A program made the position numbers and the translations under genes. The notes under the pieces were generated by a model. It was not told the DNA's origin. It saw only the letters and a list, made by a program, of their open reading frames with translations, and did not search any database. From Neopestalotiopsis rosae (Eukaryota > Ascomycota > Sordariomycetes > Amphisphaeriales > Sporocadaceae): a DNA stretch of 64,000 nucleotides. Location of the stretch: assembly GCA_023078685.1 (NCBI GenBank), contig JALGAS010000001.1:7502001-7566000 (forward strand), read 5' to 3'. Shown one piece after another: positions 8,967 through 38,174 of the stretch. Position 1 is the stretch's first letter. Every line of letters starts with the position of its first letter.

Positions 8967-10210
8967 ATGGCAGTCATCCCCATTTTTCCGCCCAAGAAGG
9001 TGCTGGACTTCATCCGCACTCTGCAGCTGTCACTCGAGACCCCGCATGACATGCTGTCGCGTTTCTCGGGCCTGGTGAGTGCAGCGTTACCACACCCCTT
9101 TCAGCGTATTTCTCTTTAAAGACGGCTTACAGGTATCACAGCATCTGAGTATAGCAGCCGCCCGTATCGGCGAGGACCTTAACCTCTTCCAGATCCTGGC
9201 TGAGAGCGAACAGCCACTAAGTGCTGAAGAACTTGCCACTAAAACGGGCGCCGCAATTTTGCTGTAAAGTAAGCTTTGCATATATTTGGTACTTTTGCTC
9301 TATTATTGATATGTAAACAGGTCGAATTTTGCGCTATCTGGCCTCTGTCGGCCAAATTCATGAGGTCGGCCCAGATAGCTTTGCCGCCAACACGCAAACC
9401 AAAACGCTTGCCGACCCAGGCTATCGCGGGGGCATTTACCATTTTTTCAACAATTGCGGCCCCGTATTCCAAGCTTTTCCGGATTTCCTGGGGGAAAATA
9501 AATATCAGGACATTGATGATGCATCAAAAACGGCGTTCCAGAAGGCGTTCCCAACAGATTTGCCAGCCTTCCAATGGCTCCCGACCCAACCCGAACGATT
9601 TGGTCCGTTGCAACAAGTTATGACGGTGCAAGGTGCCTTAGGCAACCAATGGTTTGCCGTATTTCCCTTCGAAAAAGAGCTCGGCAACTTTTCTGGTCCA
9701 CGTGTGCTCGTTGATGTTGGTGGAGGGTTTGGGCACCAATGCGTTGCCTTAAGGGCTCGCTATCCAGAGCTTCAGGGAAAGCTCGTACTGGAAGATTTGC
9801 AACAAGCATTGGAGCATTTGCCACCTCCTTTAGCAACACAGCTTAAGGGGGTGGAACAAGTTGCTCACAACTTCTTTGAGCCTCAGCCCATAAAAGGCGC
9901 CAAATTCTATTATCTACGCCAGGTTTTGCATGACTGGCCTGATGAGAATTGCGTGGTTATTTTGAAACATCTCATGGACGCCTTGGGCCCAGATTCGCAA
10001 ATTCTCATTGACGAAATGGTGTTACCGGATGCAAATGTTCCATGGGAGGCAACAACCATTGATATGACCATGATGGCGTCTCTTGGGGCCCGTGAACGCA
10101 CCAACAAGGAGTGGCACGCGTTGCTCGATAAGGCAGGTCTGAAGGTATTGCGGATCGATACGTACTTGCCGCGCCGCCAGGACTCTATCATCCAGGCTGT
10201 TCCTAAGTGA
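8967..10210 (+). CDS. Class I O-methyltransferase-like gene, probably interrupted by an in-frame TAA
   Basis: Three exons can be read: 8967-9074, 9133-9268 and 9321-10210. They would give about 378 residues, normal for plant/fungal-type O-methyltransferases (PF00891). The SAM-binding motif VDVGGGFG and the catalytic HDWPDE motif are clear, and the C-terminus is complete. A strong donor (AAA followed by GTAAGC at 9269) and the acceptor at 9320 restore the family reading frame exactly. The second exon then contains TAA at 9265-9267, one residue before the RILRYLAS motif. Using the alternative donor at 9264 avoids the stop but shifts the frame. The gene starts only 218 bp from the RIP-mutated LTR, and CAA-to-TAA is a RIP-type change, so it is likely a recent pseudogene. 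Intact, it would tailor the cluster product, by O- or possibly N-methylation. Confidence is high for the family and lower for its inactivity. Confidence 0.8.
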
Positions 10211-10225
10211 GGACGTGATCTCCGT

Positions 10226-10260
10226 GCTAGTCCGGTCTCCGTGCTAGTCCGATCTCCATG
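10226..10260 (+). repeat. Duplicated 17-bp unit in the intergenic tail of the methyltransferase gene
   Basis: GTCTCCGTGCTAGTCCG and a near-identical unit follow each other directly, then a third partial copy (ATCTCCATG). The rest of 10211-10570 is AT-rich spacer between two genes that converge. Nothing else is recognisable there. Confidence 0.6.
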
Positions 10261-10570
10261 TATCTGTCCTCTCTCTACTCAATCAAGTACCTTCGTTCGG
10301 ATACTAGAACTGTCTATATCCAATGCTATGATCACGTTGCTTTCGGTTTAGTTGCATAAATCGCCGGAAATTGCCCAGCAGAGATGAATGTTATTTATGA
10401 TACACTCACGATTTAAAACCTTCAAGCTTAATTATGCCCTTTTTAAATATCACCGCTTCATTGCGGACGATCAATCTTCATGTTACAAGAACTAATTTTA
10501 ACTGCATATTGACACGAACTTATTCTTAGGATAATATTTACTTATATTGCTAGTATAATGACAAATGGTC

Positions 10571-12616
10571 TCAAATACCAGGCAATATATCAAAATCGTA
10601 AAGTGCCATCGGCTCGATAGCAAAAAGGCCTTGGGTTGCGTCCGAAAACCCGTCTCGTTGTGATGCGCTTAGTCTCGAATCTCCGGGCACGACTTCTCTC
10701 TGCCAAGTTGCCTTTAGGTTTTGGAATTTCGTGATGATCAAAGACAAGGGTTGGTTCTCGACACCACCCACCGTGCAGGCTGCATCTACCGCCTTGACTT
10801 GCTCAAATGTATTGATGACTCTGTCCACTGTCTGCAATAAGTCCGCACCTTGCACTGCGATTGGGTTCCAAGAGGGATCGCTGTTGGTCGTGATCTTATG
10901 CAGAAATGCCACGACATAGCATAATTGGGAGTAAATACTGCAAGATACGCTAGTGTATGCGGGCAATGGCATGGCAAAGAACATATCAAGCCAAGCATTG
11001 ATGGAGTCGACACAGCGTTGGTATACCTGGTAGCGACTCAAGTCAGGTTCGTTTCTTGGAATAGTCGGCTGGAGAATTATAGACTCTCGTATAACAAGCG
11101 TTGCGTAATGGTAACATCCAAGCATCGTGGCTATCGCTATCAATAAGCACGAGGTTCACGGGAAGGAGCTGAATCACTCACACTCGCTCCCAAACGTGGA
11201 AGTGTTGCTATTGGTATTGGCAATAAGATCGTCGAGTCGTGCTTGTAGAACGTTGACCCAGGCCGTTGACGTCTCCATGGGGCCCATTTTGTAGGATGAT
11301 TGGCGGACCTGATTGACGATAAGCTGCATCTTTACTTGTCGCACAAGTACTTGATCCAGGAGCATGGTGCTGTTGGACACTTGAACGAGGTATTCGTCTA
11401 GATATGCTGACCAGCGAAGGCCCTCGGCAACTTTGAAGGTTTGCGAAATCCTGCCCGGACAGTCAATAACGCAATAACTATATTAAATGGTGGGTTAGGG
11501 AATTGAAAGAGCATCGCACGCACATGGAAGTGATGACAAAGGCACCCAGCACAACCCGCTGCTCCTCTATTGTACGTTCCTTCGCAACAGGCTGTTGCGT
11601 CATTGCTAATGCTGGAAGAGGCGGGAATCTAGGAGGGTACTCCGGCGGTGGCATCTGCAAGCCAAGGTCCCAGACCAAGGAGACGACAAGCTGTGATGCT
11701 AAGGAAGCGAACTGCTTATCCATCGGAAATAGATGTACCCTGGTTCGGTATCAATAAATAGTTAACCAAGCGATTGAAAGGTCTAGACATGCCAGTTCAC
11801 AAAGGTCAGCAAACCTAAAAGCAGGTCAAAGTTCCTCTCACCACCAGCAACCACTCTCTCGATAATGGCGTGTCTTGCTTGAAGACTAAGTGACTTGCGC
11901 ATCTTTGATGAATTGGATGTGACAACCATGATATTCAGCCAGAAAAATGGGTAGACCTGTTGAAGCTGATCGGATGTCATATCCGGTTGAAGATAGACAT
12001 AGGGCGCAAACCACTTGGCCCATGTAAGTGTCAAGCGCCAAGGTATGTCGAGACAAAAATGCTCACCATTAATTGGTCTTGAAACCGCTTGATACAATCC
12101 TGGGCACCCACGACGGTGGAATCATCGGAAATATCTTCGCCGGTCGTAGGGGTCGAGAGCATGCTATCAGTCAGCGAGTCTGTCTCATCCCCCATCTCAA
12201 AGCCATCATTACCGGAGCTGTTGCCACCACCGTCGCCCCGGCCAGACCGCTGGGCTTGCAGAAGAGTGACAAGCTGATCTAGCTTTTCCTCGAGCCTTGC
12301 CGACCTTGAAACTGTATTGCGCTTGGGGCCGCGCTGCTTGGCTGGAGCCGCAGGCATACATGTCTTATTTAATCTGTGACATCTAATACCCACACTCAAT
12401 GTTAGTTGGGGGTGGTAAAAACAAGAATTGGATTTTGGAAAACAAATCAGCATGTTACTAAGAAATGTAAGACCTCACTGACCTCTCGCAGCCCGTACCA
12501 TCCACTCGTGGGATACACTTGCACTTTACCCGGGCGCAATTTGTGCAAGCTTTGCCGTTCACATTCCGGCGCGAGACGGAAGACTGGCGCTCGTCCGGGT
12601 TGCCTTGCATATTCAT
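10571..12616 (-). CDS. Zn2Cys6 fungal transcription factor, likely cluster regulator
   Basis: The start at 12616 gives MNMQGNPDERQ, followed by a binuclear zinc cluster: C-x2-C-x6-C (CTNCARVKCKC), then after an intron C-x2-C-x6-C (CERCHRLNKTC). Basic linker residues and a leucine-rich, coiled-coil-like segment (RLEEKLDQLVTLLQAQ) follow, then an acidic Ser/Asp-rich region. Later exons at about 11783-12030, 11506-11740, 11170-11460 and 10571-11140 form the helical middle and C-terminal part usual in these regulators. At least five introns are needed; their exact borders are my reading of GT-AG sites. The gene is divergent from the exporter, with a shared ~540-bp promoter. It is the only DNA-binding regulator in the cluster and so the likely pathway-specific activator (inference). 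Confidence 0.85.
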
Positions 12617-13055: not shown

Positions 13056-13097
<42 letters not shown>

Positions 13098-13159
13098 TAG
13101 CATGCGCATCCAATATCGACTAGTTTTTTCAGTCTTTTTTGAAACGAGTACATCTATAG
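12617..13159. promoter_or_regulatory. Divergent promoter region of regulator and exporter, with a 37-T tract
   Basis: The 543-bp gap separates the divergent starts of the zinc-cluster regulator and the MFS transporter. It holds an uninterrupted run of 37 T (13058-13094) close to the transporter start, and GC-rich half-site-like words such as CGGAGCGG and CCGGTCCGG near 12720-12765 that could serve a Zn2Cys6 factor. The binding-site reading is speculative. Confidence 0.5.
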
Positions 13160-15331
13160 ATGGCTCATACACCCGAGCATTCATTTCCGGAGCTGCCAGC
13201 AGCAACTAAGCGAGCAGTCATGGACACGCCGCACCAGTCCACCGGACTTGAGGGCACATCAAGGAAATCATCTATGGCCAAAATAACCGAACCTGTCACT
13301 GGGATCAAGTTTAAGTTGATGATGCTCAGTCTGACTCTCGCGTCTCTTTTGATCTTTCTAGATACATCCATCGTCTCAACCGTCAGTAGACAATTCCCAA
13401 GAAATGCCATCTTCAAGGAGCTGATATTATGTTTTCTTCAAGGCCGTCCCGCAAATTACCGACGAGTTCCACTCACTCAGCGACATTGGCTGGTATGGAA
13501 GTGCCTATCAGCTTGGAAGGTATTGCTCGAGTCTTCAATGTCGCAGCATGCAACTCATTAAACACTAACACGTGCTCCATAGTGCCGCCTTTGGTCCATT
13601 GTCGGGCAACATTTTCCATCATTTCAGCCTGAAGGTGAGAGTACAATGGCGAACCTCAATGACTTCGATTTACTGACCATCGTTCAGTGGACATATCTGG
13701 CGTTCTTTGCCATTTTCGAGATAGGTTCCGCCGTATGTGGCGCTGCCCAATCTTCGGCCATGCTGATTGTAGGCCGAGCTATAGCTGGCATTGGGGCATC
13801 TGGTGTAAGCAGTGGTGCTTACACTATTCTGTCCGCTACAGTGCCTCTCGAGAGGCGTCCTGGTAAGTTAGTCAAGTCGAGAGACAAAATGGAGCTAATT
13901 CTAATGCTGAAGCAATTTTGGGAATGCTCATGGGGAGTAAGTTCGTTCCAGTCCGGACGGCTGCAGTTTCATCTAATCAAACACTCTTCAGTTGCCCAGC
14001 TAGGTACTATTAGTGGTCCTCTTGTTGGAGGCGCCTTCACAACAGGTTACACTTGGCGATGGTGTATGTACGATTGCGCAAATTTGACAGCGTCAGATAT
14101 TGATGGTTTCTCAAGGTTTCTACGTCAACCTACCCCTCGGAGCTTTGGTCGCAGTCCCTCTTCTTCTACTGCATATCCCGGATCAAGTTGAAAAGAGCGA
14201 CCCTCTCAAGGTAGTGCGAAGCCTCCATCACCATCTCGACTTGATAGGCTTTGCGCTTCTCGCTCCAGCTATTGTACAACTTCTTCTTGCCCTGCAATTT
14301 GGCGGCGTCCAATTCGCTTGGTCATCCTCGCAAGTTATTGGTCTGTTCTGTGGTTCCGGCACAACATTCTTCGTCTGGGTATTTTGGAACATCCACAAAG
14401 GCGACCGGGCACTGCTTCCCTTCTTTATTATCAAGCGCAGAGAGGTTTGGACGAGCGGTGTCAACTATGCATTCATGATGTCGACCGTCTTTGGATCTAC
14501 CTATTTCCTCCCCGTCTACTTCCAGGCAGTGAAGGGAGTCAATGCCATCATGAGTGGTGTCTACCTTTTGCCCATTGTTTTACCTCAACTCTTCTCGGCA
14601 GTCGTCGGTGGATCGTTAGGTAAGTGGCTCAGAAGTAGCCTCGCAGACCACACGGTGAATTGATACTTTATGCTAGTTACAAAGGTTGGCTACGTGCCTC
14701 CGTTCGCTCTGGTGGGAGGTGCGCTAGGGTGTATAGGAAGTGGCCTGTTTTCCTTGTTCCAACCAGACACCCCGACCGGAGAGTGGGTTGGATTCTCCAT
14801 TGTCGCTGGCCTTGGCCGCGGTGCCAGTCTGCAAATGGTACGATGTCATCTATTTAATCGTCATAATGATGTACTAACATATTCTAGCCCCTCATTGCTA
14901 TACAATCAGCAGTGACACCAGAAGAAATGTCCCCGGCAATGGCCTTCTGCGTATGGTGCCAATACATTGGACCGACCGTCTTCCTGACTCTTTACAATAC
15001 CATATTTGATAGTAGCCTTCGATCACAAATTCCAGAGTACGCGCCCGACGTCGGTGCGCAGGCAGTCATTGCTGCTGGGGCTACCAGATTTCGTGGTCTT
15101 GTAAGCGCTCAGGACCTACCTGGGGTCTTGGTAGCATTCTCAACCAGCTTGGACTACACTTTCTATCTCCAGGCCGGCGCTGGTGTCATCGCCTGGGTCT
15201 CTGCATGGGGCATGGGATGGAAGGATATCCGGAAGAAGGAGAAGGGTTCGCAGCCTGATCAACCTGCAGATTTCAGCTCCACTCAGCACGAAGATGGTAT
15301 TGGCAGCTCGCAAAAGGAGCACTCATCATGA
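13160..15331 (+). CDS. MFS drug:H+ antiporter-type exporter (about 14 membrane segments)
   Basis: The start at 13160 reads [13 protein letters not shown]. After a charged N-terminus the first membrane segment ([20 protein letters not shown]) follows, then at least six more exons. Family motifs are the LDTSIVST region, [24 protein letters not shown] (motif B), and [22 protein letters not shown] with FYVNLPLGA (motif C region of DHA2-type transporters). The C-terminal exon ends with a short hydrophilic Lys/Ser/Gln-rich tail. Introns are about 60-90 bp; the reading frame is complete with no disabling change seen. Transporters of this type in secondary-metabolite clusters usually export the product or give self-protection. 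It converges with the NRPS gene. Confidence 0.88.
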
Positions 15332-15899: not shown

Positions 15900-18800
15900 T
15901 TATAGCCGACTTCGAAGATCACAAAGCTTTAAGTCTGGATCTTTCTGGATGAAATGGAACACGGCCTGGAAGCCTTCCATAAACTTGTCCCAGTCATAGA
16001 CGCCTTTTATTGTGCTTTCGCTGAGGCGGAGAGAGACAGTCGCCGATCCGGGAGATAAGGAGCATTGCAGAAGGGAATTCAGGGCACATATCGGGCCGTA
16101 ATACTGCATCTCCCTTTCCCGAAACATTTCTGGATACGCTGTATCTAGATCCGGCTGCACGACAAGTAAAGTGCCGTATTGACATGCTGCTTTGCACTCG
16201 GGGCTCAGTTGTTCGATGGTTCGGTCCTCAATCCCTTCGTTTGCCATCATCGATAGGAGCCTGTCTTGATCCGCCTCCAGATTATACCTCAGCGACCTGT
16301 TGGGTTCCAACAAAATTCGATCAGGGAGCATTGCAGTAGTAGGGACGGCCGAGTCGATGATGTCTGCAATCGGCGCCGACCGCCGCGCAAAGACGCCCCA
16401 GAACACTAAATCGTTGGTGCCACAGTACCAGGAAGCCATGATCGCCCAGGCCAAGCGGATCTTGTTTGTTGCAGTGAAGCCATTGTTGACGACATCAAAT
16501 TTTCCAGTCAATTCACGGCTCTCGGTGGGCTCGAGTGATGCATCCAATACCGGCGGGAAAATTTGACCGTCGAAACCTGCAAACTTATCCACCCAGAACT
16601 GGTGTTTGGAAGCATTTGACTCTGACGACCACTGGACAAATGGCGCAAAGTGCGTCAAAGGCAGCTTCTGGCCCTGGTATGCGTTGAAGATACCTCGGAA
16701 GATAAGAGGCAGTGACTGGCCATCATAAATCGCATGATGAATTAGCATGACAAATTGATCTGCATGCACCCCGACCCTCACGAGACGTTTTCCCAGCCCC
16801 CATACATCCACAGCAGGCTCGTACCGTGCCTTGTTCGAGTTGTCAATGGTCTCGAAGGGAATTTTCTCACTGACCACCGCTTGGACGTAGTGGTCCTTCG
16901 TCAGCTCGACGATGCGCGTACGCAACATGGGATTAGCTTCGACGACTCTTTCCCAAGCAAAAGCCAGCTGAACTGGATCGACGTCGATTGGCAGATTGAA
17001 CTTCAGCCGCAAAGTATAGTTGTATCCCAGCTGAATGGGTATGGTGGCTGCATCAAGCTGGAGCGAGGTGATGGGAAAAGCATCCTCAATTGAGTCTGGA
17101 GATACTTGGCATTGATCGGCGATAGTACGAAGAAGCCGGTCGCCCTTCAGCTCGTGATTACTCAAAAGGCTGAATGGGTCGGGAATTTTCTCTGTCGATG
17201 AGACGTTTGATTTGACGTGCTGGCATAGGAGGGAAATTGTTTTGTGGCGCAATATGTCGGGAACCGTCAGAAATAGTTGTTCTCGACGTGCAAGTGAGAC
17301 CAGTTGCATAGCCCCAAGAGAATCACCGCCCAGAGAGGTCCACTCATCATTCCTACCGACTTCGTGTAAGTCCAGTCCGAGCACACTTGCCCAGAGCCTT
17401 TGAAGTTGTTTTTCCGATGCTGTCAATGGCATTGACCTTGCCGTGTCCTCTTGACCGAGATAGCTCAGTAATTGGGCGCGTGAAAGCAGCTTGACTCGCT
17501 CTCGCAAGTATCTGCGATCCAATTTCCCTGTCACAGTTAAAGGAATGTATTCGATGGAGAGAAAGAATTCGGGAACCATATAACTAGGCAATTTCGCCCG
17601 CAGTAGAGTCTTGGCTGTACTCATCCGATCCATGAAAGCCGCATCTGGTACCAAGAAGAGCTCGTTAGTAGAGTTGGGGCTTTTGTCTGCGACAATGAAA
17701 GCTACCAGGGAGTTGGTTCGCGGTCCAGCGGCGATAGCGTCGACAAGAACCTCTTGGAAATCTCCCAGCACAGCCCGCATATGGTACTCTACTTCTTGGA
17801 GCTCAATGCGCTGACCATTGATCTTTACTTGCATGTCCTTACGACCGATAAAGACGAAAGAACCATCAGGAAGGCGACGAACTAGATCCCCCGTCTTGTA
17901 TACCTTTTCCTCCTCTGATGAGGTGCTCGGAAGCCATGCGGGGTTTGAAATATATGCCTTGGCTGTTTGTTCTGGGTCATTGAGGTATCCTTCGCTCAGG
18001 CTGGGCCCCTGAATGACAAGCTCCCCACACTCGCCTTCTTGTATGAGGATATCATGGTTGTCTTCGTCCACTACCCAGCATCTGACAGCATGGGAGAAAC
18101 CGATATTTGTTGAGGACTCAACATTCTTATAGTCGACTTGGATAGTTGTACATCCCGCGCACTCGGCTGGACCGTACAATCCGGTTACTTGGACGTGTGG
18201 TAGCCACATGTCGAGATCGGTCTGAGTGACGGGCTCCCCTCCCAGAGCAAGATGCTTGAGACTGGGTAGTCTGGTTGGATCAAGTATGCGAGCCACCGAA
18301 GGAGTTAGGAAAACCCAGTTGACCCGTAATTTCTCGATTGTCTCGATGAGGTTGTTTTCGCGGTCGAACTCCGACGCGATGCAGAGACAACCTCCAACAA
18401 GGAGCGCCCAAAAGTGCTCCAAGAAGCTGACGTCGAATGCAAAGGATGCGAATTGCAGAACTCGGGAAGTCCGACTCAAATGCATCGCATCCCTATTGTG
18501 AAGTATTCCGGCGACCAATGCTTTGTGGGAAACAAGAATCCCTTTGGGCTTGCCTGTAGATCCAGACGTGAAGGCGACATAGGCTGCTGCGCGAGGGGCC
18601 GTAGCCGCCAATTGCAGCTGTGGTGATGCAGTCCTGAGGAGCTCTTCACCCACGGTCAAGACTACCAGATTTCCACCAAGCTTCGCCACCAACTCCTGCT
18701 GTGACTTCGAGGACAAAACCACCTGTGCGTTTAGCTGACGACACATGTGTTGCAATCGAGCCAACGGGTGCTTGGGCTCCAGGAAGCAGAAGGCGCTGCC

Positions 18801-19094
18801 GGCTTTTGTGACTGCGAGTATAGCTACTGCGGTCCATTGCGACTGGTTCAAACAGAGGGGCACAAAAACGCCTGCTCGAACTCCGTTTTGCACCAGTAGC
18901 GTGGCTAAAGTTGAGGATTTGTCGTCTAATTCTTTATATGTCAAATCTCCGTCCCACGCACAAACAGCAGGAGCATCAGGTTGTTCTTGAACGCGCTGCT
19001 GAAAAACATCCTGGATACAGAGGCTTATCTCCTCTGGCGCGACAGTGTCTTTATCGGGCTTTGCCTTGGCAACTCCGTGTTGATTGTTTGCCAT
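15900..19094 (-). CDS. Single-module NRPS, A-T-C architecture (1064 aa)
   Basis: One uninterrupted exon. The adenylation domain spans about residues 25-530 with all core motifs: AFTSGSTGKPKG (174-185), GLYGPAE (305-311), YKTGDLVRR (399-407) and VTGKLDRR (521-528). A carrier domain follows with the phosphopantetheine serine in LGGDSLGAM (588-596). A condensation domain covers about 640-1064 with an intact HHAIYDG active site (786-792). There is no starter C, thioesterase or reductase domain. The terminal C domain should therefore pass the bound amino acid to an alcohol or amine acceptor. In the flavunoidine pathway a protein of this layout esterifies a terpene alcohol with a pipecolate (recalled knowledge). 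The A-domain pocket begins D-V-x-x-L in GrsA numbering, but I did not derive a full specificity code. Function in this cluster is inferred. Confidence 0.93.
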   Translation of the reverse strand: MANNQHGVAKAKPDKDTVAPEEISLCIQDVFQQRVQEQPDAPAVCAWDGDLTYKELDDKSSTLATLLVQNGVRAGVFVPLCLNQSQWTAVAILAVTKAGSAFCFLEPKHPLARLQHMCRQLNAQVVLSSKSQQELVAKLGGNLVVLTVGEELLRTASPQLQLAATAPRAAAYVAFTSGSTGKPKGILVSHKALVAGILHNRDAMHLSRTSRVLQFASFAFDVSFLEHFWALLVGGCLCIASEFDRENNLIETIEKLRVNWVFLTPSVARILDPTRLPSLKHLALGGEPVTQTDLDMWLPHVQVTGLYGPAECAGCTTIQVDYKNVESSTNIGFSHAVRCWVVDEDNHDILIQEGECGELVIQGPSLSEGYLNDPEQTAKAYISNPAWLPSTSSEEEKVYKTGDLVRRLPDGSFVFIGRKDMQVKINGQRIELQEVEYHMRAVLGDFQEVLVDAIAAGPRTNSLVAFIVADKSPNSTNELFLVPDAAFMDRMSTAKTLLRAKLPSYMVPEFFLSIEYIPLTVTGKLDRRYLRERVKLLSRAQLLSYLGQEDTARSMPLTASEKQLQRLWASVLGLDLHEVGRNDEWTSLGGDSLGAMQLVSLARREQLFLTVPDILRHKTISLLCQHVKSNVSSTEKIPDPFSLLSNHELKGDRLLRTIADQCQVSPDSIEDAFPITSLQLDAATIPIQLGYNYTLRLKFNLPIDVDPVQLAFAWERVVEANPMLRTRIVELTKDHYVQAVVSEKIPFETIDNSNKARYEPAVDVWGLGKRLVRVGVHADQFVMLIHHAIYDGQSLPLIFRGIFNAYQGQKLPLTHFAPFVQWSSESNASKHQFWVDKFAGFDGQIFPPVLDASLEPTESRELTGKFDVVNNGFTATNKIRLAWAIMASWYCGTNDLVFWGVFARRSAPIADIIDSAVPTTAMLPDRILLEPNRSLRYNLEADQDRLLSMMANEGIEDRTIEQLSPECKAACQYGTLLVVQPDLDTAYPEMFREREMQYYGPICALNSLLQCSLSPGSATVSLRLSESTIKGVYDWDKFMEGFQAVFHFIQKDPDLKLCDLRSRL

Positions 19095-20173: not shown

Positions 20174-20665
20174 CTATGCCCCCTCCGCGAGTAGCTCTTC
20201 CACATGCGGATTCATCCAGTACTGACTCAAGACGGTCGGATCTAGATCTTTGCTCCCTGAAATGAGCCCTAGACAATTCTGAGATCCGCAAGTGCATTTG
20301 AACGGCTGGACCATATCCCACTCCGTACTTGGGTAGAAGAACGTCAGCTCGTCTCCTACTGAGAGAGGCCAACCACGAGCTACGCGAACCTCAAAGGTGG
20401 ACATGTCAAATTCGAGGGAAGGCGAGCAGGAGTGGTTGCAGTAGACGAGGTCGGAGCACAGCTCGATGTTCACACCGCGCCCAGTCTGAACAGATGTATA
20501 AGTCTTCTGGGGTGCCGCAATTGCCGAGTCGATCTTGCTGAACAGTGCCCCTGCTGGCAATGCCACCAAGGAACGGGCACTGGATGTGTATGGTATCGTT
20601 CCTTTGACGACCTCGATATGAGCCGGATGGCTGGGCTGCTTCCAAGTAGCGGTGAATTCGGACAT
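20174..20665 (-). CDS. Small SET-domain protein (about 163 aa)
   Basis: Starting at MSEFTATWKQPSH (20665), this single-exon gene has the hallmark SET segments: the NHSCSPS motif (after VYCN), the GDELTFFYPSTEW segment that normally supplies the catalytic Tyr region, and a post-SET-like CTCGSQNCLG. It is only as long as a bare SET fold, without chromatin-reading domains. SET proteins transfer methyl groups from SAM to amines, classically protein lysine. Its place between the NRPS and the decarboxylase genes suggests a pathway role, for example methylation of a lysine/cadaverine-type amine or of a protein. That is inference; a histone-modifying role in cluster control is the main alternative. 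It is divergent from the decarboxylase gene. Confidence 0.82.
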   Translation of the reverse strand: MSEFTATWKQPSHPAHIEVVKGTIPYTSSARSLVALPAGALFSKIDSAIAAPQKTYTSVQTGRGVNIELCSDLVYCNHSCSPSLEFDMSTFEVRVARGWPLSVGDELTFFYPSTEWDMVQPFKCTCGSQNCLGLISGSKDLDPTVLSQYWMNPHVEELLAEGA

Positions 20666-21636
20666 GTTGACTTTCTTGTTGCTTGCGATTATGACCAGTC
20701 TCAATTTGGCTCAGAAGAAGCGTGGTTTGGGTTTTCGTCCGACGTGCTTCGTGCTCAATGAGCCAGGGAGGTAACAGGGAAAATAGACAACGGACTTCCG
20801 GGATGGGCAGGAGAGAACGGCTGATTGGACGAATTCGGAGTTTGGTTTAGACGCATCTGGGGATACGTTGATATTTGAGATATAGAGAGTATTGACCTAG
20901 TGGAGAAGAGGCATGTGGAGCTCTATGACGAATTGATACATTGGACGCGATGCCTTCGAGTTTTTGAGGCCGTAAAATTTCATTAGAGATATGTCGTAGC
21001 ATGCCATGCCGCATGATTGGAAGCTATACGATCTCGAATTCATCATGGTACAGCTCCGTGGAGATCGGCACGGGCCAGAGCGGGCCGGGTCTAGCCTGAC
21101 ATTCCACTGCCGACTACCATGTAAGTGGTTATGATCTGTCGTGGTTTACTCAGCTCTCGGGTGTCTGATGTGGAGTTTTTCATTTCGTCGCAGGATGGAT
21201 AGCGCGATCTCGCTTATGTTGCAGTATGTCTCAAGATCGGTCGTCTGTACGATGTAGAAGAGTCTCTTCACTTCCGATCTTGTTCACCCAGCAGAGGTGG
21301 GGGCCGCAAGGGGGGCCTTGCTAGCTGGGTGATCAACTAATCGACGAGGATTGAAGACCTTGCATCGTACTACTATAGTACCATGTACAATAGATACCTA
21401 GTCTACCACAGTATGTCGAGCCCTGAGGAGGTAAGACGCTACCCACGTGTCTGTCGATCATATACGTAACTATTCTGATACTCTATCAACTACTTTGACA
21501 GCTTGCTCGATCATTTTTCTGCCCAACAAAGACAGATCTTCGCTTGTAACACTGTCGCTTTGGTCGTCTGCAAAAGCAAGACGTACAACCCTTAGTACCG
21601 GAACAGTCGCAAAACGCCTAAATCAAACGAAGGAAC
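20666..21636. promoter_or_regulatory. Divergent promoter region of SET-domain and decarboxylase genes
   Basis: The 971-bp gap lies between two divergent starts. A GC-rich stretch near 21065-21095 (GAGCGGGCCGGG) resembles zinc-cluster half-sites. No coding potential was seen. Confidence 0.45.
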
Positions 21637-24982: not shown

Positions 24983-26387
24983 ATGGAAGGACTAAGAAGA
25001 CATTCGATCATGCTTGATCGCAAGCTCTGGCAGAATGATCCCATATACTTTTTTCGAACACTTGCCCCTCATATCAGCACCTCTGCGCAGCGCGCAGATG
25101 ATGCCTCCATCCAAGCCCAGATCGATGTGTTCGGGAGGGAAGATGTCGGCGCAATGCCAGGAGCCCTCGGACCAAGGGGCAACTTTGCCGCTCTCACCTT
25201 TGCTGAAGCCTTCCCCGACAGAGTTGCTATGCTAGCCTATCTGAATGAAATCCTGAGTTTCTACGAGTGTACGCTGAGCTGCCCCCGAAAGCTTCCATCC
25301 ATTTTTTCATGATCAGATCTTCCCAGGCCTCAGTATGAGAGGAGCTTGCTATTCGTATGCTTACAATGTTATTTCACAGGCTTTGAGAAACAAATGACAG
25401 AATCGGTAAGCATGCCTTTCATTTCCCACTCATTTATAGCATCTTTCGTGGTTGAATTCACCAGGATTGAACCACTTATTCACAAGATCTCTTCGGCTAA
25501 CTCACGGCTGTGTCTTGTAGTTGGAAGCTAAGCTCATTGCCGTCCCTGTCCCACAAGATCCCAAGTTCAACAATGCCGTTTGGCAAGGAAACTACAAGAA
25601 GACGATGGCGAAATGGCCAAAGTTCCTTCTACAGCTGGACCCCAAACTGGGGCCCAAGTGCATCCAGTCTCTCAAGGCGCTGATCGAGGGGACGGATATG
25701 GAACCCAAGATGTCCCAGTACAAAACGATGAAGGAATACGTTATTGATCGAACGCAATACATTGCTTGGCCGTAAGTCGTCCTTTGAATTCGTTCGTCTT
25801 CCAATCCTTGCATCGGGTCGCTCGCTTAACAAGTTATGATGTACAGGGTTGCTTGCGACAACGCCGAGTTCGGCTCGCAACTGAATCTGACACAAGAGCA
25901 AATGGATTCCGTTCGCGAGATTTTCCTGCCCCTCTGGTACCACTCCTGCTACGTCTATGACTACAACCGCTATGACAAGGAGGCCGAGATCCACTCCACC
26001 TACGGTACAGGCCGCAGCATGATCAACTCGGTGCCTCTTCTCAATCGGCTGAAGGGACTGTCCGTAGATGAAGCCAAGAGCTGGCTCAAGCAGCGGTGCT
26101 TTGAGTTGGAAGAGGAATACCTTCATCGCCGCGATGACTACTTCAAGGAGAACTCGGCGGAGACCGTTCCTGAGGATTTGCGACGTTGGTTCTTGTGCCA
26201 GGAGGACCTCGCTACCGGGTTCGCCATTTGGTGCGCGACAACTTACCACAACCATCCTCCATATGGAGAAGGGTACGCCGCTCCATTCAAGAAGCGTCGC
26301 GACGAAGGCGCCGTCTGGTTCGACAACGTGACCGATGATGACAATAAGCTCATGACGGGCGGGTTCGAAGCGGAGCTGGCAAAGTGA
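24983..26387 (+). CDS. Noncanonical terpene-cyclase-like protein without DDxxD (flavunoidine FlvF-like role proposed)
   Basis: Exons 24983-25268, 25380-25405, 25521-25771 and 25847-26387 give about 367 residues. The order of segments follows fungal class I terpene cyclases: FPDRVAMLAYLNEI before the first metal site; YDYNRYDKE at the position of the second (NSE/DTE) motif; then SVDEAKSWLKQRCFELEEEYL and the C-terminal HNHP region. Across the first intron the DDxxD position reads FYECFEK, and the NSE Asn and Ser are replaced by Tyr and Arg. Normal Mg2+-dependent ionisation of a diphosphate is therefore doubtful. In the flv pathway, as I recall, a second cyclase-like protein is implicated in forming the C-N bond between terpene and diamine; this gene is a candidate for that job. 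It converges with the trichodiene-synthase-like gene. Confidence 0.78.
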
Positions 26388-27085: not shown

Positions 27086-28216
27086 CTAGGCCACCAAGAG
27101 CTTCCCTGTGGTCTTCATATTGGTGGTTGGGTAGGAGTAATCTTGAGTGCCCACCCCGTTATCGTGCTTGAGATCCTCAGGGTTGGCCCAGAGCATGCGA
27201 TCGATCTGACCGATGCTGGTGGCCCGCTCGTAGAATCGCCGGAATTTGGTGGAGTTCTCATCTTGTCCCACCTGTGCATAGACCTCGTGCATTCGGAATC
27301 GAGGATCACAGAGATGCCAAGTGACATAGCCGTGCACAAAGGCCCGGATGGTCGCCTCGATCTTGGGATCCTTGCCTTGGAAGACGTCCACCAACTGCTT
27401 GCAGTAGAGGATTGTATCATCCGTCAGCTGCTTGAACGCGACCTCCCAGCCCACTTGATTGCAATGGGCAAGGTTGCTGACCAGGTTGATCTGATCACGG
27501 GGGCTGTCGAATTCCTTGTAGAAGGAGATCAAGTCATTACAGAGAGTCAGTTGCGGTTCGATCTGGGCGATAGCTGTGACGATTTCCTCAAAGACAAGTT
27601 CCTCGTCGAACTCGGAGCTTGGGAAGAGAGTAGCGCTAGAAATTCCTCCCAAGCCGTTGAGCCGACGCAAGAAGTTGGGGAAGTAACCAGAGCCAGGGAA
27701 GCCGCCAAAGTTCTTCTGCTCGATCCAGCAACCCTGGAAGAAATCCAGCGTACTGCGGAAAATCGTCATGCCACAGAAACCGCCGTAGAGGTGGAGGAAA
27801 TTGGTCAGGTGTGCGTTCATCCGCTGCCAGAACTGATGTTTCTGCGCCCGTCCCTTGATGAGATCCTCGCAAAAGGTGGTCATCTGCAAAGCGGGTATCT
27901 TGCTGGAGTCGTCCAGCATGATGATGTAGACAAAGTAGATGGACACGCCGACCATGACCTCGAGGGGGCACTTTGCCCAGCAATACACGGTCACCAGCGT
28001 GCTGGTTCGCATGACCGCCTGTAACCGCTTAGGCTGGACCTCGAGCGCGGCCTTTTCGATGGGTTGGTCAAAGTGTTTGGCCGTGTGGTAGAAAACATGT
28101 CTTAGGGTATTAACGCGCTGCTCATAGCTGAAATTCTCGTCCTGGTAATCAATGGTTTCGAGAAACTCAGCTAGAGCCGCGACGTACTCCTTCAAGGGGA
28201 ACTGCTTATTTGCCAT
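27086..28216 (-). CDS. Trichodiene-synthase-type sesquiterpene cyclase (376 aa)
   Basis: A single exon, read from [12 protein letters not shown] at 28216. An in-frame upstream Met at 28327 would add 37 residues unlike the family, so the shorter start is preferred. The length equals that of TRI5-type cyclases (about 375-385). The first metal motif is LDDSS at residues 101-105. The second is NDLISFYKE at 227-235, almost at the position known in TRI5. Near the C-terminus CDPRFRM replaces the TRI5 CDxRYRL basic motif. Such enzymes cyclise farnesyl diphosphate, often through a bisabolyl cation to cuprenyl- or acorane-type skeletons. In the flv pathway, as I recall, the first cyclase yields an acoradiene; this gene would fill that role. 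It is divergent from the first P450. Confidence 0.92.
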
Positions 28217-28695
28217 TGTGCTGCTGTCGTAAAGATATAAGAGGGAGATGATGTACAAAGATTCAAACAAACTTCGCTGTGATCGTAAGACAGCTTTGTA
28301 ACTTGGGCCTCGAGGGATATGAACCATTTATCTTAAAATTTGGTGCTATAGATCATACCCAGTTACTATAGTAGCAAGATCAAACACCCGAGCCGCCCAA
28401 TCAACAGCTGCTAAAGCGTGCACAAGGTTTTCACAAGTGGCTCCAGAATATATGACATGGAGTATTTGACTTGGCCATCCTACCATAGTAAGCCAGCATC
28501 GGGCTGATAGCTTATATAGTTGACTACTACTACAATAGGCTTAAACCAGACCCATATAAGCTGACACTCGAAGTGGATATTGTGTTTTTTGACACTTTTC
28601 AATCATTGCCAACAAGATAGACAAGCTTGCTTTTCTTTGTGCCGTCTATTCTTCCTTGACCCAATTCTAACATCCCAAAACACACGAACTTTACA
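28217..28695. promoter_or_regulatory. Shared divergent promoter of sesquiterpene cyclase and P450
   Basis: This 479-bp gap between two divergent starts is compact and is the natural place for coordinated control of scaffold formation and first oxidation. A possible TATA element (CATATAAGC) lies at about 28551-28559, about 140 bp upstream of the P450 start. Confidence 0.55.
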
Positions 28696-30559
28696 ATGGT
28701 CGAAGGCGTATCAGCCATCGAGCTGCATGGTCACTCGACTTTTGCAATCATTGGTCCTGCTTTCATAGCCTTCATTTTCCTCAAGGCTATCTACAACATC
28801 TATTTTCATCCTCTCCGAAATTTCCCTGGGCCCAAATTGGCAGCCGTCGGCCCTTTCTACGAGTTCTATTATGATGTCATTCGAGATGGAATGTTTATGT
28901 GGGAGGTAGAGAGGATGCACCGAACATACGGTATGTGATCAGACATGAAACTCTCCCGTCCATCCTTCGTGGTATCGTCACGAATAGCGGCCCCGAAAAT
29001 GAGCACTGACGGCCCTGTTGTATAGGTCCTATCGTTAGAGTAAATCCTAATGAGCTTCATATACTTGATCCCAACTACTACAGCACAGTGTATGCCGGAA
29101 ATCACCGCAGCACTGACAAATACCATGATGCGGTGGCCGCATTCACCGTTCCAAAAGCCAGTTTGGCCACCATACAGCATAAAGTCCATCGATTGCGGCG
29201 CTCCATCTTGAGTCCATACTTCTCAAAGGCTGCCGTTGTCCGGCTCGAACCGGCAATTCACGAGCGGATTGACCGGTTGTGTTCGCGACTAGAAGAGAAC
29301 ATGCGACTTGGACAGGTCGCGGACTTGGACGCGGCGTTTGCTGCGCTGACCGCGGACATTGTGACGACTTACTTCTATGGACAAAACTCGGACTTCTTGG
29401 GGCACGAAGGGTTCAAATTTGAAATGCGGGATGCCATTCTTGGCCTGATCCGATTCTACCACTTCACAAGGTTCTTTCCATGGGTCGCGGATACTATCAA
29501 ACGGCTGCCTATTCCAATTATGCGACTGATACACCCTGGTGCCTCATATCTTGTCTCGTCTCAGGAAGATATCAAGGCCAATATCCGTGCATCTCAAGTC
29601 AGTGGGCATAAAGAACCAAGCAAATCTGTCATCGTTCAAGCACTAGAAGATCCGACCGTACCCGCGCAGGAGAGAACCCTCGATCGTCTTGGAGACGAAG
29701 GCACGACGATCATCTTCGCTGGCACAGAGACAACGGCGAGAGCCCTCAGCGTGGGCATGTTTCACATATTGAGCAATGAGGCCATCTTAAACAAGCTGCG
29801 GGAAGAGTTGGACACTTTGCCAAGTGTGCCAAACAGAGAATACACCTATTCCCAACTCGAATCTCTGCCATATCTGGTAAGCCTTGCTTTTTCTTTCCAG
29901 CTATTATGCTCTAGCTTCTTCGAAAAACTTGAAGACTGGAACGGAATGTGATGGCAAAGTCACTAACCAGATGCCTACAGAGTGGAGCGATTCAAGAGAG
30001 CCTGCGACTGTCTCACGGCCCCGCGGTACGTCTTCCGAGAGTATCGACCGAGAAGGCCCTGGAGTATGGAGACCACGTGATACCTCCTGGCGTAAGTTTC
30101 TCGCGCGACCTTTGGTGAAGGAATTTATACCAAATAATATGTGACGCAGGTCCCTGTCAGCATGTCTACTGTTCTCGTCCACCTTGACTCGTCTATATTT
30201 CCCGAGCCTCATAGTTTTGACCCTGAGCGCTGGGTCAAGGCATCAAAGGAAGGTGTCAACCTTGACAAATTCATGGTTGCGTTTACAAAGGGCACCAGGC
30301 AGTGTCTCGGGATCACGTAAGAATCATTGCCCAATTCGTGTTTCACATATTATCGGTACTTGTCCTCTGGAGCTAACTATGTGTGGTCAGTTTGGCATAC
30401 GCGGAAATGTACTTGACTTTTGCCAAACTTATTGGCACATTCAACATGGAGATTCATGATACGTCACCGGATGATATCAAGGTACATCATATCCGACTCA
30501 CTGGAGCGCCAAAACAAGGTACTGGGGAAGTGAAGGTGAAAATCATTGATAAGATATGA
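28696..30559 (+). CDS. Cytochrome P450 monooxygenase (cluster P450 1)
   Basis: The N-terminal anchor (about residues 14-33, [20 protein letters not shown]) is followed by the proline-rich hinge [10 protein letters not shown]. Six exons end at 30559, with junctions near 28930/29024, 29876/29979, 30091/30149, 30318/30390. The I-helix oxygen-activation motif is [14 protein letters not shown] gives ExxR, PERW is present, and the heme loop is [10 protein letters not shown], with the Cys ligand intact. The frame is complete to KVKIIDKI. It is a class II, ER-bound fungal P450 of the trichodiene-oxygenase type. It probably hydroxylates the sesquiterpene made by the divergent cyclase (inference); regiochemistry cannot be predicted. 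Confidence 0.9.
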
Positions 30560-32040: not shown

Positions 32041-32052
32041 ACTTCTATAGCC

Positions 32053-32782: not shown

Positions 32783-34550
32783 ATGGAATCTTCCCAGATT
32801 CTCTCTCTACTGAATGCAAAGTCCTTGGCGACAGTTCTTGTTGTAGCATTTTTGGTCCAACAAATCTGTTCTGCATTTTCCCTCACAGTCCTGCATCCTT
32901 TGGCCAAGTTTCCCGGTCCGAGACTGGCTGCCGTCTCAAACTGGTGGCTGATATATCACGAGTGCTTCCTGGGAAAGTCTCTCACCGATGTTCTGGCTGA
33001 ACTACATCTCAATTATGGTACGGCAGCATTGATATTCAGAACATGACAAGGGTTTTATCCTTGCATGTCGGCGCAGAAAAGAATCACGACTAAGGTGAAG
33101 AAACAGGACCTGTTGTTCGATATGGACCACATCATGTGAGTTCTAGTTCCAATCATAATAGATTTTCAGACCATTCATGCTAATTTCTTCTGCTTCTACT
33201 TGAAAAAGCTACATTTTTCAAACCTACAGGCTTACTTGGATATCTACAATGCGAAATCCAAGTGGGATAAAGATCCTGAAGTGTATAACGCAATAGTAGA
33301 CGGCTCCTCCACATTCGGTCTCACAAATTATCATTCGGCCAAGGAACGGCGGGATATTATCTGGCCATTCTATTCGCGGCAAAACGTCAAAAGTTGTGAG
33401 AAGGCCATCAGCCGACAAGTAAGTCTGAATGATAGAATGCATGAAAAAAATACCACCAGTACCATAAATACTTATTGTTTCAAAATTATTACAGGTAGCT
33501 ATCTTGGTGGAGCAACTCGACAAAGACAACAATGAGGGGAAATTATCCAATATGTCCCTTGCGCTTCGATGTCTCGCCCAGGACATGGTGGCAGACGTGT
33601 GTTTGGGCAAGTCCCTGGATACTCTGCGAGCGAAAGACTTCGAGTCACCACTCATTCTCGCCCTAGACGAGGGCCTTACTTACTATGTTGTGATGAAACA
33701 CTTTCCAACACTCCGAAAAGTTCTCGCCTTCGTGTCCAGGTTTGTTTCCCTCCCGGGCGATGCTGAGTTTTCTGCATACGGAACCATGGTATCGGACCAG
33801 GTCACGAAAGGAATTGAGCGGCCTCAGGATATTTCAACTGACTCTATGCTGGGTTTCATGGTGCTTCCATCATCAAAACCCGGACAGGACACGTCGCAGC
33901 CGAAGCTGAGTCAAGACCTTCTTATCGAAGAGCTCCAGACATTTGTCATCGGTGGTGGTGAGACTGTCGCCAGCGCCATGGTTCAAGCGCTAAGTGGCAC
34001 TTTGCAGAATCCTGCACTCTACCGAGCCGTGTTTGAAGAGATCCTTCGAGTTTGGCCGGAAGCGGGCGCAGATATGCCCTCAATCGAGGTCTTGGAGGGA
34101 CTACCGCTCTTGACTGCGGTGATCAAGGAATCTCTCCGGCTGACTCACGGGGTAGTAGCACCACTCCCTCGTGTTGTTTCCGCCGAAGGTGCCGTCATTG
34201 ACTCTCATCACGTACCCGCTGGCACCGTTGTCGGAATATCGCATGTATTCATTCATTTGTCAGGCGAGAATTTTGACGGCCCTGAAAATTTCAGACCCGA
34301 GCGGTGGATGGATGGGAGTTCCTTGGACAGGAATCTAGTTGCATTCTCCAGGGGCCCTCGTAGTTGCATAGGGATTAATTTGGCTTGGTGTCAGCTATAC
34401 ATTGCCCTGGCTACTCTGTTCAGGAAAGTCCGTATGGAGTATCCTGCGGATCTGAATGATGTCAAGATCAAGTGGAGGGATTGCTTCCAGCCACTGTACA
34501 ATGGGAAACCACTACAAGTGCGATGCACAGCCATAGATGGTCGCTGTTGA
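32783..34550 (+). CDS. Cytochrome P450 monooxygenase (cluster P450 2)
   Basis: Exons 32783-33017, 33107-33135, 33209-33418 and 33495-34550. The tiny 29-bp second exon supplies PVVRYGPHH, which completes the conserved N-terminal beta-strand. A membrane anchor (VLVVAFLVQQICSAFSLTVL) and hinge FPGPRLAAV come first. The I-helix reads IGGGETVAS, with Val where most P450s have the second Thr. ESLRLTHG, PERW and the heme loop FSRGPRSCIG are intact. It resembles P450 1 in layout (both have LRLxHG after the ExxR) but is clearly diverged. It probably performs a later oxidation of the terpene scaffold, such as ether or hydroxyl formation needed before esterification (inference). Confidence 0.9.
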
Positions 34551-35741: not shown

Positions 35742-38174
35742 ATGACATGCAAGACCGTTCACGCTTTAGATAAGGTCCAGATGTCTCTTCCATTGTCATC
35801 CATACACGATGTTTGGAGAATAATATTTTCACGTTTCAAACGCAACACAGATGCCATCAAAATCCGGTTTGATGAGTACACGGCATTATGCGAGGAGTCA
35901 AACTTGCAACGGGATGACTGGTCCGAGTCAATCTTTTCAGGCGACTACGAAAAGCTTGTCAAGCTCAGTTCGACGTTTGAAATCGCCCTCAAGCCATTGC
36001 CAAATGTAGTTGGCGACACGGAGGAAAGGTTGGAAATCTGGCAGATCGAAGAACGTTACAGGGCTCTTGCACAACTTCAGTCGACCCTTGGGTCATTCTT
36101 CGAGCGCGTTTGCCCGGCGTACGATGGTTCGCGATTGCCGTGGTTCTTCGACCCTGCCTACTACCAGTCCCCGGGCGTGAATTACGACCGCTTCGCATCG
36201 CCGGATGTCCGGAACCGGGAACAACAACTGCTAGACACACTGCAGTTGGGCTCTTCGAATAGCCAGAACCCTCAGCTCCTACTGATGTCCAGCGGCATGG
36301 CGGCCTTTACCGTAATTCAGCAATACGTAGTCCAGCAACTTGAGCCTGGAGATGTTGTGGCAGTGTCTCCATACATCTACTTTGAATCATTCCAGCCGGT
36401 TCGCTCACACAAGTCCCTCTCCGTGGTGCACGCAAAAGGGTTTGACACAGAGAGCTTGATCGAGGTGGTGGAAAGCAACAACGCCAGTGCCCTCTTCCTC
36501 GACCCAATGTGCAACACACTGGGACTGGAAACCGTGGACCTCCGCGAATTCGGCCGCCGGGTGGCCCACAGAGAAGGCTGGGCTGACCGTCTGGTCGTGA
36601 TTGACGGCACGTTGGTGTCGGGGGGGATGCCGTTGTATGACTGGTTCGATGGCCCTCATTGCCCCAAGGTGCTGTACTACGAAAGTGCCCACAAATATAT
36701 CCAACTGGGCTTGGATCTCGTCTCGTGCGGATACGTGGTCATGCCAGAAGTCCTGGTTCCTGCAATTCAGTTGATCCGCCAGATTACAGGTACCGTCTTG
36801 TACTCCCGGAACGCATCTCTCCTCCCACCTATTGACAAGAGGGTATACAATTTTCGCATGTCTCGGTTGACTTCCAACGCTGAGAAGCTGCATCGTTTGC
36901 TTAGCGCAGGAAGCGGCACCTTTGCTGAGGTGATGTTTCCTCATCACTGGCGCGAGTACGGGTGGAGACACGGCGGAAATGTCGTTACTATCCGCTTCAA
37001 GGGGGATGGATTGAATCAGAAGCACAATCTGAGCCGCTGCTGTGATGAGATCCTCCGCGCCGCAGAAGAGCAAGGCGTCCCAATGATTAAAGGGGCCAGC
37101 CTGGGCTTCTCCACGACTCGGATTTTCGAGGCCGACGCATTTGTGAAGGGCGTCGATCCTTTCCTTCGAATATCCGCTGGAGTAAATACTGAGGACGTAG
37201 AGGCTGTTGCTCAAGCTCTTCTGAGTGGAATGAGGAGATATTGCAGATCTGTAGCGCGTGTAGAACTCGACGTGGGCCAGCAACTCTACAATGTTAGCTT
37301 CTACAATGCTGTGACGAAAATGCTGGATATGAGGGCTCGGTATATCAAAGAGCGGGTTGTCTTCATGGAAGGCAAATGGCTGGTCCCTATCCTACAGGCC
37401 CTCGGAGCTCAGGAGGAGGACTTTGACGCACTCCGGCAGGTCAGCTGTCACCTGGGTGCAGATCCTACTGTGGACTACCGGACCATCAGAAATGGGCTTT
37501 TCTGTTTCGACTTCGCGAACAAGAAAATCCATCGGCTTCGGAAACAACGCTTTACCCTGACCCTGCAGGACGACTACAAACGTCATGATTCTGGACTGCC
37601 TCGCGACTTCCCAGAAGTCCGTGGTGACCTGCAATACAACACTGCTCTGCAGGCTTTGATGGTGGTCAAGGCATTCATCATCAACAAAGTGGATATCACC
37701 CATCGCGCCCATCTGGACTACACTAACCCGGTTTCCCTGTGTAACGTTTTCAACATCCGGACTTTTACTGAAAAGGGTATCCTCGGCGAGCCTGCCCTCG
37801 AAGGCGTGCATGCTGACGGTGCCGACCACACAATGACAACTTTTCTGGGAAGTTCGAATATGACGGCAAAGAGTGGAATTACCTTCATTCATGACAACAA
37901 GGAGCTCACTGGTATCCCGACCACTGAGGCTCATCCAGGCCTCATACGACATGAGTTCCAACATCGTAACTTCCTTGACTGTCTGCTCTTCGCCGACAAT
38001 GAATCCAAGCACAGCCTAACTTCCGTCTTCCAGGAGGATTTATCTCAGCGTGCCACGCGAGATATGCTGCTATTTCTCACCCGCAAGCCGAAATTGGATG
38101 GTCATCCCTCGGGAAGTGTCGATGCCATGGAGCCGCATAGTACCCTCGGTATGAGTACTCCATTATGGCTGTGA
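35742..38174 (+). CDS. Bifunctional PLP-dependent enzyme fused to a 2-oxoglutarate/Fe(II) dioxygenase (810 aa)
   Basis: One exon of 810 codons (an alternative Met lies at 35781). Residues about 130-510 form a fold-type I PLP domain related to Cys/Met-metabolism (gamma-elimination/replacement) enzymes: MSSGMAAF, then VIDGT with the pyridine-binding Asp, then SAHKYIQLG with the Schiff-base Lys at about 318. Residues about 560-790 match the BsmA/isoleucine-4-hydroxylase family of dioxygenases (PF10014). There EGVHADG supplies the His-x-Asp iron ligands (His about 690), ESKHSLT supplies the distal His (about 757), and a following Arg (about 773) would hold 2-oxoglutarate. Both active sites look intact. 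The likely job is to build and then hydroxylate a nonproteinogenic amino acid for the neighbouring NRPS. The substrate is unknown, and I know no characterised enzyme with this domain pairing. Confidence 0.85.
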   Translation: MTCKTVHALDKVQMSLPLSSIHDVWRIIFSRFKRNTDAIKIRFDEYTALCEESNLQRDDWSESIFSGDYEKLVKLSSTFEIALKPLPNVVGDTEERLEIWQIEERYRALAQLQSTLGSFFERVCPAYDGSRLPWFFDPAYYQSPGVNYDRFASPDVRNREQQLLDTLQLGSSNSQNPQLLLMSSGMAAFTVIQQYVVQQLEPGDVVAVSPYIYFESFQPVRSHKSLSVVHAKGFDTESLIEVVESNNASALFLDPMCNTLGLETVDLREFGRRVAHREGWADRLVVIDGTLVSGGMPLYDWFDGPHCPKVLYYESAHKYIQLGLDLVSCGYVVMPEVLVPAIQLIRQITGTVLYSRNASLLPPIDKRVYNFRMSRLTSNAEKLHRLLSAGSGTFAEVMFPHHWREYGWRHGGNVVTIRFKGDGLNQKHNLSRCCDEILRAAEEQGVPMIKGASLGFSTTRIFEADAFVKGVDPFLRISAGVNTEDVEAVAQALLSGMRRYCRSVARVELDVGQQLYNVSFYNAVTKMLDMRARYIKERVVFMEGKWLVPILQALGAQEEDFDALRQVSCHLGADPTVDYRTIRNGLFCFDFANKKIHRLRKQRFTLTLQDDYKRHDSGLPRDFPEVRGDLQYNTALQALMVVKAFIINKVDITHRAHLDYTNPVSLCNVFNIRTFTEKGILGEPALEGVHADGADHTMTTFLGSSNMTAKSGITFIHDNKELTGIPTTEAHPGLIRHEFQHRNFLDCLLFADNESKHSLTSVFQEDLSQRATRDMLLFLTRKPKLDGHPSGSVDAMEPHSTLGMSTPLWL

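Follow-up and report, generated by a model that had tools for sequence, protein, structure and literature searches.

Does a dense set of biosynthetic genes in Neopestalotiopsis rosae encode the pathway to flavunoidine, the alkaloidal sesquiterpenoid known from Aspergillus flavus, or a pathway to something new? The genes span approximately 8.97-38.17 kb of a 64,000-nucleotide stretch (positions 7,502,001 to 7,566,000 of contig JALGAS010000001.1, hereafter the window), which an earlier note had read as a cluster related to, but distinct from, the flavunoidine (flv) pathway. We put at roughly 0.87 the probability that the cluster is of the flavunoidine type and orthologous to that of A. flavus, from which the present fungus is fairly distant, with flavunoidine or a close relative as its product, because one of its proteins is the orthologue of FlvF and seven others match, role by role, FlvA, FlvC to FlvE and FlvG to FlvI as set out in a review (PMC8902786). 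The relatedness claimed in the earlier note was thereby strengthened (80% identity to FlvF), but two of the features by which it set the cluster apart, a fusion of pyridoxal phosphate (PLP) and 2-oxoglutarate (2OG) enzymes and a SET-domain protein, lend no support to that distinction.

The genome, of 53.8 Mb in 17 contigs, is fungal by its intron-bearing genes and protein families, and the window lies on its contig C1. Gene models were built with a simple splice script and with splice sites read by eye, protein families were assigned by Pfam scans, and solved relatives were sought by sequence search of PDB chains. All the genes named in the earlier note are present, as judged by Pfam, patterns and solved structures (Table 1).

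The FlvF-type cyclase and membership of the flv family

The evidence that carries the flavunoidine-type reading comes from the second of the two cyclases, whose best PDB match is 8d7f, "Terpene cyclase flvF" (707.7 bits, E = 3.1e-212), aligned from residue 2 to 366 of 367 and identical in 293 of 365 columns, i.e., 80% over the full length. The next solved cyclase is far weaker (E = 6.9e-17), so that, of the grouping of both cyclases and the peptide synthetase with flv proteins that had been suggested as a check, the part concerning the cyclase-like gene was borne out. Where the aspartate motif would be expected, both proteins have ECFEK, and where the second metal motif would be, the sequence YDYxxYDKEAEIH differs between them at two residues. 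A motif search of the window protein found neither D[DE]xx[DE] nor NDxxSxxxE, and Pfam returned PF19086 alone (E = 1e-6); because both metal-binding motifs are absent and the family match is of this kind, the description of this cyclase as degenerate was apt. In the flavunoidine pathway, FlvF mediates amine addition (PMC8902786). On the strength of this alignment, the second cyclase is an FlvF orthologue and the cluster belongs to the flv family, as the earlier note had placed it.

An exon query of the FlvF-type gene matched only itself in the whole genome, with no second flv-like locus. As controls for the distance between the species, the genome's uricase shares 57% identity (148/260) with the best solved uricase, whose chains we take to be from A. 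flavus, and its N-myristoyltransferase is 60% identical (207/345) to 4qbj, presumably from A. fumigatus; UDP-galactopyranose mutase, sought as a further control, was not found. Since the 80% of FlvF stands well above both housekeeping values, few as two controls are, its conservation could reflect a horizontal transfer or strong constraint.

Counterparts of eight of the nine flv genes lie in the 29-kb interval, FlvF recognized by sequence and the other seven by family or architecture. Like the A. flavus cluster in the review's account, the interval combines TRI5-type and FlvF-type cyclases, a decarboxylase, a candidate methyltransferase, two P450s, a PLP-2OG chimera and a non-ribosomal peptide synthetase (NRPS) of the order adenylation-thiolation-condensation (A-T-C) (PMC8902786). 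Clusters resembling flv outside A. flavus are already in print for Fusarium, in which five FlvE homologues are more than 47% identical to FlvE and four genes similar to flv genes are stated, against the eight counterparts of the window (PMC10455296). No near-complete flv cluster outside A. flavus was found in the literature searched, subscription papers excluded. For flavunoidine itself, the laboratory strain A. nidulans A1145 is given as the host (PMC9335490). A nearly whole flavunoidine gene set is thus indicated in a second fungal lineage, offering a natural comparison for identifying the essential genes, for working out the function of the PLP-2OG fusion and for understanding C-N bond formation by a cyclase-like protein.

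The other enzymes of the core

The first cyclase, correctly recognized as TRI5-type in the earlier note (PF06330), carries the motif NDLISFYKE at residue 227, and its best solved match is trichodiene synthase, with 46% identity (158/345). By family it is FlvE-type, FlvE being the enzyme that makes acoradiene (PMC8902786) and listed under accession B8NHE0 (PMC11600568), and no chain named FlvE occurs among its 12 PDB matches. A genome search with this protein gave two further, distant matches (25-28%). The group IV decarboxylase, with the motifs AVKCN, EPGR and CDGTD, is by family FlvG-type, and the two P450s would, by count and family, take the roles of FlvC and FlvD, which are P450s (PMC8902786). 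Pfam likewise recovered these three enzymes and the exporter of the major facilitator superfamily (MFS) as they had been named. The Zn2Cys6 regulator, for which the Pfam scan gave no Zn-cluster match, was recognized from its cysteine spacing by pattern search (C-X2-C-X6-C-X8-C-X2-C-X6-C), and one intron of its model has a GC donor.

In the NRPS, the AMP-binding, PP-binding and Condensation domains follow one another in the A-T-C order that had been reported. Its adenylation pocket, located from motif anchors at positions that we take to follow the GrsA numbering, reads D-V-L-F-A-G-L-G-C, and no substrate was drawn from it. The condensation domain carries HHAIYDGQS at residues 786-794, which fits HHXXXDXXS, the form found in NRPS condensation domains other than that of AneB, in which the motif is QHXXXDXXS and proline is used (PMC10720950). 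The window protein resembles AneB and ThmA in its A-T-C order and in its predicted role of esterifying a terpene with an amino acid (PMC10720950), which is also what FlvI does in the flavunoidine pathway (PMC8902786). We therefore call it FlvI-type by architecture, from the domain order and the HHXXXDXXS motif rather than sequence identity; no chain named FlvI occurs among the best 60 of its 200 PDB matches.

The 810-residue fusion protein had been offered as a difference from flv. However, FlvA is itself a chimera of a PLP lyase and an alpha-ketoglutarate dioxygenase (PMC8902786, section 15), and because the window protein has the same architecture (a match of domains, not of sequence), the fusion is a shared hallmark of the two clusters. 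PF10014 is found with the whole protein (E = 1.1e-41), and PF01053, the family of Cys/Met metabolism, appears above its cut-off only in a separate scan of the N-terminal part (E = 5.1e-9); for this PLP part, NCBIfam models of the cystathionine gamma-synthase type remain far below their cut-offs (best E = 1.8e-8). A PLP enzyme of the Cys/Met-metabolism type is what is expected for a user of O-acetylhomoserine, and a gamma-substitution on that substrate would therefore fit.

The nearest comparison for the 2OG part is the aziridine-forming oxygenase TqaL (7eeh), with which it shares 50% identity throughout the domain (155/308; E = 2e-94), with the H-x-D, the distal His and the Arg kept. TqaL numbering was inferred, a one-residue shift bringing F168, F187, F234, I343 and F345 onto the right letters. 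By this numbering F168, F187 and F234, which have been modelled near L-valine (PMC11880133), are kept, and I343 and F345 are both Leu. In TqaL, F345 favours aziridine formation at the expense of hydroxylation (PMC11880133); because it is Leu here, the domain is unlikely to be an aziridine synthase, and the residues kept fit a valine-like substrate handled without aziridine formation. Unlike TqaL, moreover, this domain is fused to a PLP lyase. Only its own locus was matched by the PLP-2OG query in the genome, and none of 21 pattern matches was confirmed as a bacterial relative of the fusion. Structure prediction of the PLP part without alignments was useless (mean predicted local distance difference test score, pLDDT, 36.2).

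The SET-domain protein and its relatives

With 163 residues, the SET-domain protein falls below the Pfam cut-off (E = 0.047), and its assignment is supported by solved SET structures. The best of these is BurB (9l4t, E = 2.3e-9), with histone methyltransferases at 1e-4 and weaker, and only residues 77-142 align with it. BurB is a SET enzyme of a natural-product pathway that methylates free methionine as an S-methyltransferase (PMC12542666). Because this nearest solved relative acts on a free amino acid, we propose the window protein as a candidate for the role of FlvH, which is an N-methyltransferase (PMC8902786); like BurB, it is a small SET protein with a free amino acid as its proposed substrate, although lysine takes the place of methionine. 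The SET gene had also been listed as a feature setting the cluster apart, a view weakened by the presence in the flv pathway of FlvH, whose role it may fill (PMC8902786). No statement that FlvH is a SET protein was found in the literature searched.

Searching bacterial and archaeal genomes with the SET protein gave 78 matching stretches, four of which encode relatives, all from metagenome-assembled Bacteroidota (one titled Segetibacter). These relatives are 43-44% identical over approximately 120 residues (58/134 for one pair), and since two of them (L022 and L023) are nearly identical, they amount to about three independent cases. Directly after the SET gene, all four loci have an ATP-grasp ligase-like gene, followed in three by another ATP-grasp protein, this one with a fused SET domain; on the fourth contig there is no further closed open reading frame (ORF) of at least 110 residues after the first ligase. 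A membrane protein of an ABC transporter comes next in L023 and L024, the two loci tested. A small-molecule operon is a possible reading of these loci, and because the bacterial relatives adjoin ATP-grasp ligase-like genes, they support an action of such SET proteins on free amino acids. That the window protein is a free-lysine N-methyltransferase, within a cross-kingdom group of tiny SET proteins acting on free amino acids that would include fungal flv-type clusters, BurB and the Bacteroidota operons, is a tentative proposal to which we give a little less than an even chance. It would nevertheless provide a clear example, open to testing, of a free amino acid serving as the substrate of a SET domain. 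Structure prediction of this protein without alignments was also useless (mean pLDDT 30.4).

Elsewhere in the genome there is another SET gene of this kind (G000:C10:2183444-2184237; 44-53% identical by exon); inspection by eye of the ORFs listed around it revealed no biosynthetic cluster.

Proposed pathway

Gene content, motifs and FlvF orthology were established directly, and every reaction below is inferred from the review and from family knowledge. In the flavunoidine pathway, FlvH N-methylates and FlvG decarboxylates lysine to give dimethylcadaverine (PMC8902786). By analogy, free lysine would be dimethylated at its side-chain nitrogen by the SET protein and then converted to dimethylcadaverine by the decarboxylase, while the TRI5-type cyclase would turn farnesyl diphosphate into an acorane-type sesquiterpene, to be oxidized by one of the P450s. 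The FlvF orthologue would then form the C-N bond between the amine and the terpene cation, and the second P450 would add a hydroxyl. From O-acetylhomoserine and a valine-derived unit, the PLP-2OG fusion would build a dimethylated six-ring amino acid, which the A-T-C NRPS is predicted to load and to transfer as an ester.

Promoter motifs and possible shared regulation

The window contains three copies of the palindrome TACTATAGTA, where 0.02 would be expected, and all three lie in cluster promoters, covering five genes. It was chosen post hoc after a k-mer scan of seven promoters; in a shuffle control, some 10-mer was present in at least three of the seven in 20 of 200 shuffles, and a palindromic one in none of the 200, whereas for 9-mers 86 of the 200 shuffles equalled the real promoters. 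We regard the palindrome as modest support for joint control of the cluster genes. A related 12-mer, CTACTATAGTAG, has ten matches in the window with at most two mismatches, against 1.6 expected; its exact form is found at four sites of the genome, none of them in the window, compared with nine for the reversed control.

Sites of the CGG type, as bound by Zn2Cys6 regulators, were sought in 48 variants of spacing and orientation upstream of ten genes, with mononucleotide shuffles for comparison. CGG-N1-CCG is present upstream of five of ten cluster genes and one of six flanking genes, and CGG-N12-CCG upstream of five of ten and none of six, each pattern being reached in 0 of 100 shuffles. Because 48 variants were tried and shared divergent promoters count twice, the result is not decisive and these are not claimed as sites of the regulator. 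CGG-N12-CCG lies upstream of the transcription factor/MFS pair and of the NRPS, FlvF-type and PLP-2OG genes, mostly promoters without TACTATAGTA.

Alternative readings

Several observations weigh against a flavunoidine-type cluster. Only FlvF was compared directly, FlvA, FlvC, FlvD, FlvE, FlvG, FlvH and FlvI being matched by family or architecture, and the activity of the TRI5-type cyclase is not assured, because it has DDSSK where trichodiene synthase has DDSKD. The exact TACTATAGTA is absent from the promoters of the NRPS, the PLP-2OG fusion, the second P450 and the transcription factor/MFS pair. The O-methyltransferase (OMT)-type gene is absent from the flavunoidine pathway of the review, whose account of A. 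flavus also leaves out MFS and Zn2Cys6 genes (PMC8902786). Unlike in A. flavus, no counterpart was found within the cluster for FlvB, the short-chain dehydrogenase (SDR) that works with FlvA to convert O-acetylhomoserine and ketoisovaleric acid into dimethylpipecolic acid (PMC8902786). No SDR was detected in 8.97-38.17 kb among the annotated genes and 28 different ORFs of the gaps, and tblastn over 8.9-38.3 kb with the SDR encoded near 43 kb gave nothing better than E = 0.42, although a very diverged or many-exon SDR could escape both scans. That nearest SDR (43.05-43.89 kb), assigned by family and a possible FlvB counterpart, is encoded 5 kb past the cluster, with a HET gene and an FSH1 hydrolase in between.

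With an OMT gene present and an FlvB-type SDR missing, the product could be new, and a diverged flv-family cluster could make a genuinely different compound, e.g., one that is O-methylated or that bears an unreduced or differently substituted amino acid. The position of the OMT gene at the cluster edge and the core interval devoid of a detected SDR speak for this, yet the 80% identity to FlvF suggests that the coupling partners are unchanged, and reductases need not be encoded within a cluster; an SDR is indeed present only 5 kb downstream. As to the OMT-type gene, which the earlier note had counted as a difference, its last exon does match PF00891 and it is indeed missing from the review's pathway, but its 5' part has no clean splicing: the middle piece runs into a stop, and the canonical donors and acceptor give no in-frame join that keeps it (the automatic models were discarded, and the sequence was read and its frame checked by hand). 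The gene may thus be broken or mis-modelled, and we hold a genuinely different product to be rather unlikely. The OMT-type gene also lies near an AT-rich block and is possibly decaying.

The TRI5 family of the first cyclase, together with trichodiene synthase as its best solved match, would suit a trichothecene-like sesquiterpene cluster. Nevertheless, its 46% identity is below the level of a trichodiene synthase, members of the Fusarium TRI5 group sharing more than 85%, and FlvE homologues reach more than 47% identity to FlvE (PMC10455296). No acetyltransferase family was present among the window proteins scanned by Pfam. To our knowledge, moreover, an FlvF orthologue, a decarboxylase and an NRPS have no place in the trichothecene pathway and do not fit it, which makes this explanation highly improbable. 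Still less credible is a chance assembly of unrelated genes that do not act together, given that 29 kb hold genes for eight roles of a single published pathway, that the palindrome TACTATAGTA is common to three cluster promoters and found nowhere else in the window, and that the PLP-2OG and FlvF-type queries had no second match in the genome.

Coordinates and surroundings of the cluster

Table 1. Features of the window and bacterial relatives of the SET-domain protein (the latter in coordinates of their own loci)
Feature	Position	Strand	Details
O-methyltransferase-type gene	8967-10210	+	PF00891 E = 1.9e-25 on last exon 9321-10210
Zn2Cys6 transcription factor	10571-12616	-	6 exons, 571 aa; spliced model
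MFS exporter	13160-15331	+	9 exons, 576 aa; PF07690 E = 3.7e-43
Single-module NRPS, A-T-C	15900-19094	-	1064 aa; AMP-binding 31-371, PP-binding 563-627, Condensation 690-966 (Pfam)
SET-domain protein	20174-20665	-	163 aa; proposed free-lysine N-methyltransferase (FlvH role)
Palindrome TACTATAGTA	21371-21380		SET/decarboxylase divergent promoter
PLP decarboxylase, group IV	21652-23103	+	3 exons, 413 aa; PF02784 E = 5.5e-70, PF00278 E = 7.6e-21
Palindrome TACTATAGTA	24573-24582		upstream of FlvF-type gene
Cyclase-like protein, FlvF orthologue	24983-26387	+	4 exons, 367 aa; PDB 8d7f
TRI5-type sesquiterpene cyclase	27086-28216	-	single exon, 376 aa; PF06330 E = 1.8e-181
Palindrome TACTATAGTA	28364-28373		TRI5-cyclase/P450 divergent promoter
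Cytochrome P450 (first)	28696-30559	+	5 exons, 510 aa; PF00067 E = 3.2e-54
Cytochrome P450 (second)	32783-34550	+	4 exons, 509 aa; PF00067 E = 4.5e-51
PLP lyase (about 140-400) fused to 2OG-Fe dioxygenase (508-810)	35742-38174	+	810 aa; FlvA-type chimera by architecture
Short-chain dehydrogenase, outside the interval	43049-43892	-	PF00106 E = 6.3e-28
Bacterial SET relative, L021	5884-6393		genome scan
Bacterial SET relative, L022	5444-5941		genome scan
Bacterial SET relatives, L023 and L024	5914-6411		genome scan

The G+C content of the window is even from 10 kb onward (46-54%). To the left of the cluster, positions 256-8900 hold what look by eye like pieces of Copia-type retrotransposons, and a block of 12-15% G+C at 4-8 kb. 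On the other side, the cluster is adjoined at 38421-43892 by the HET-domain gene, the FSH1 serine hydrolase and the SDR, beyond which Fringe-like, GH106 and GH47 proteins are encoded, among others. Long charged reading frames of low complexity, rich in Lys, Glu and Asp, occupy positions 48055-49159.

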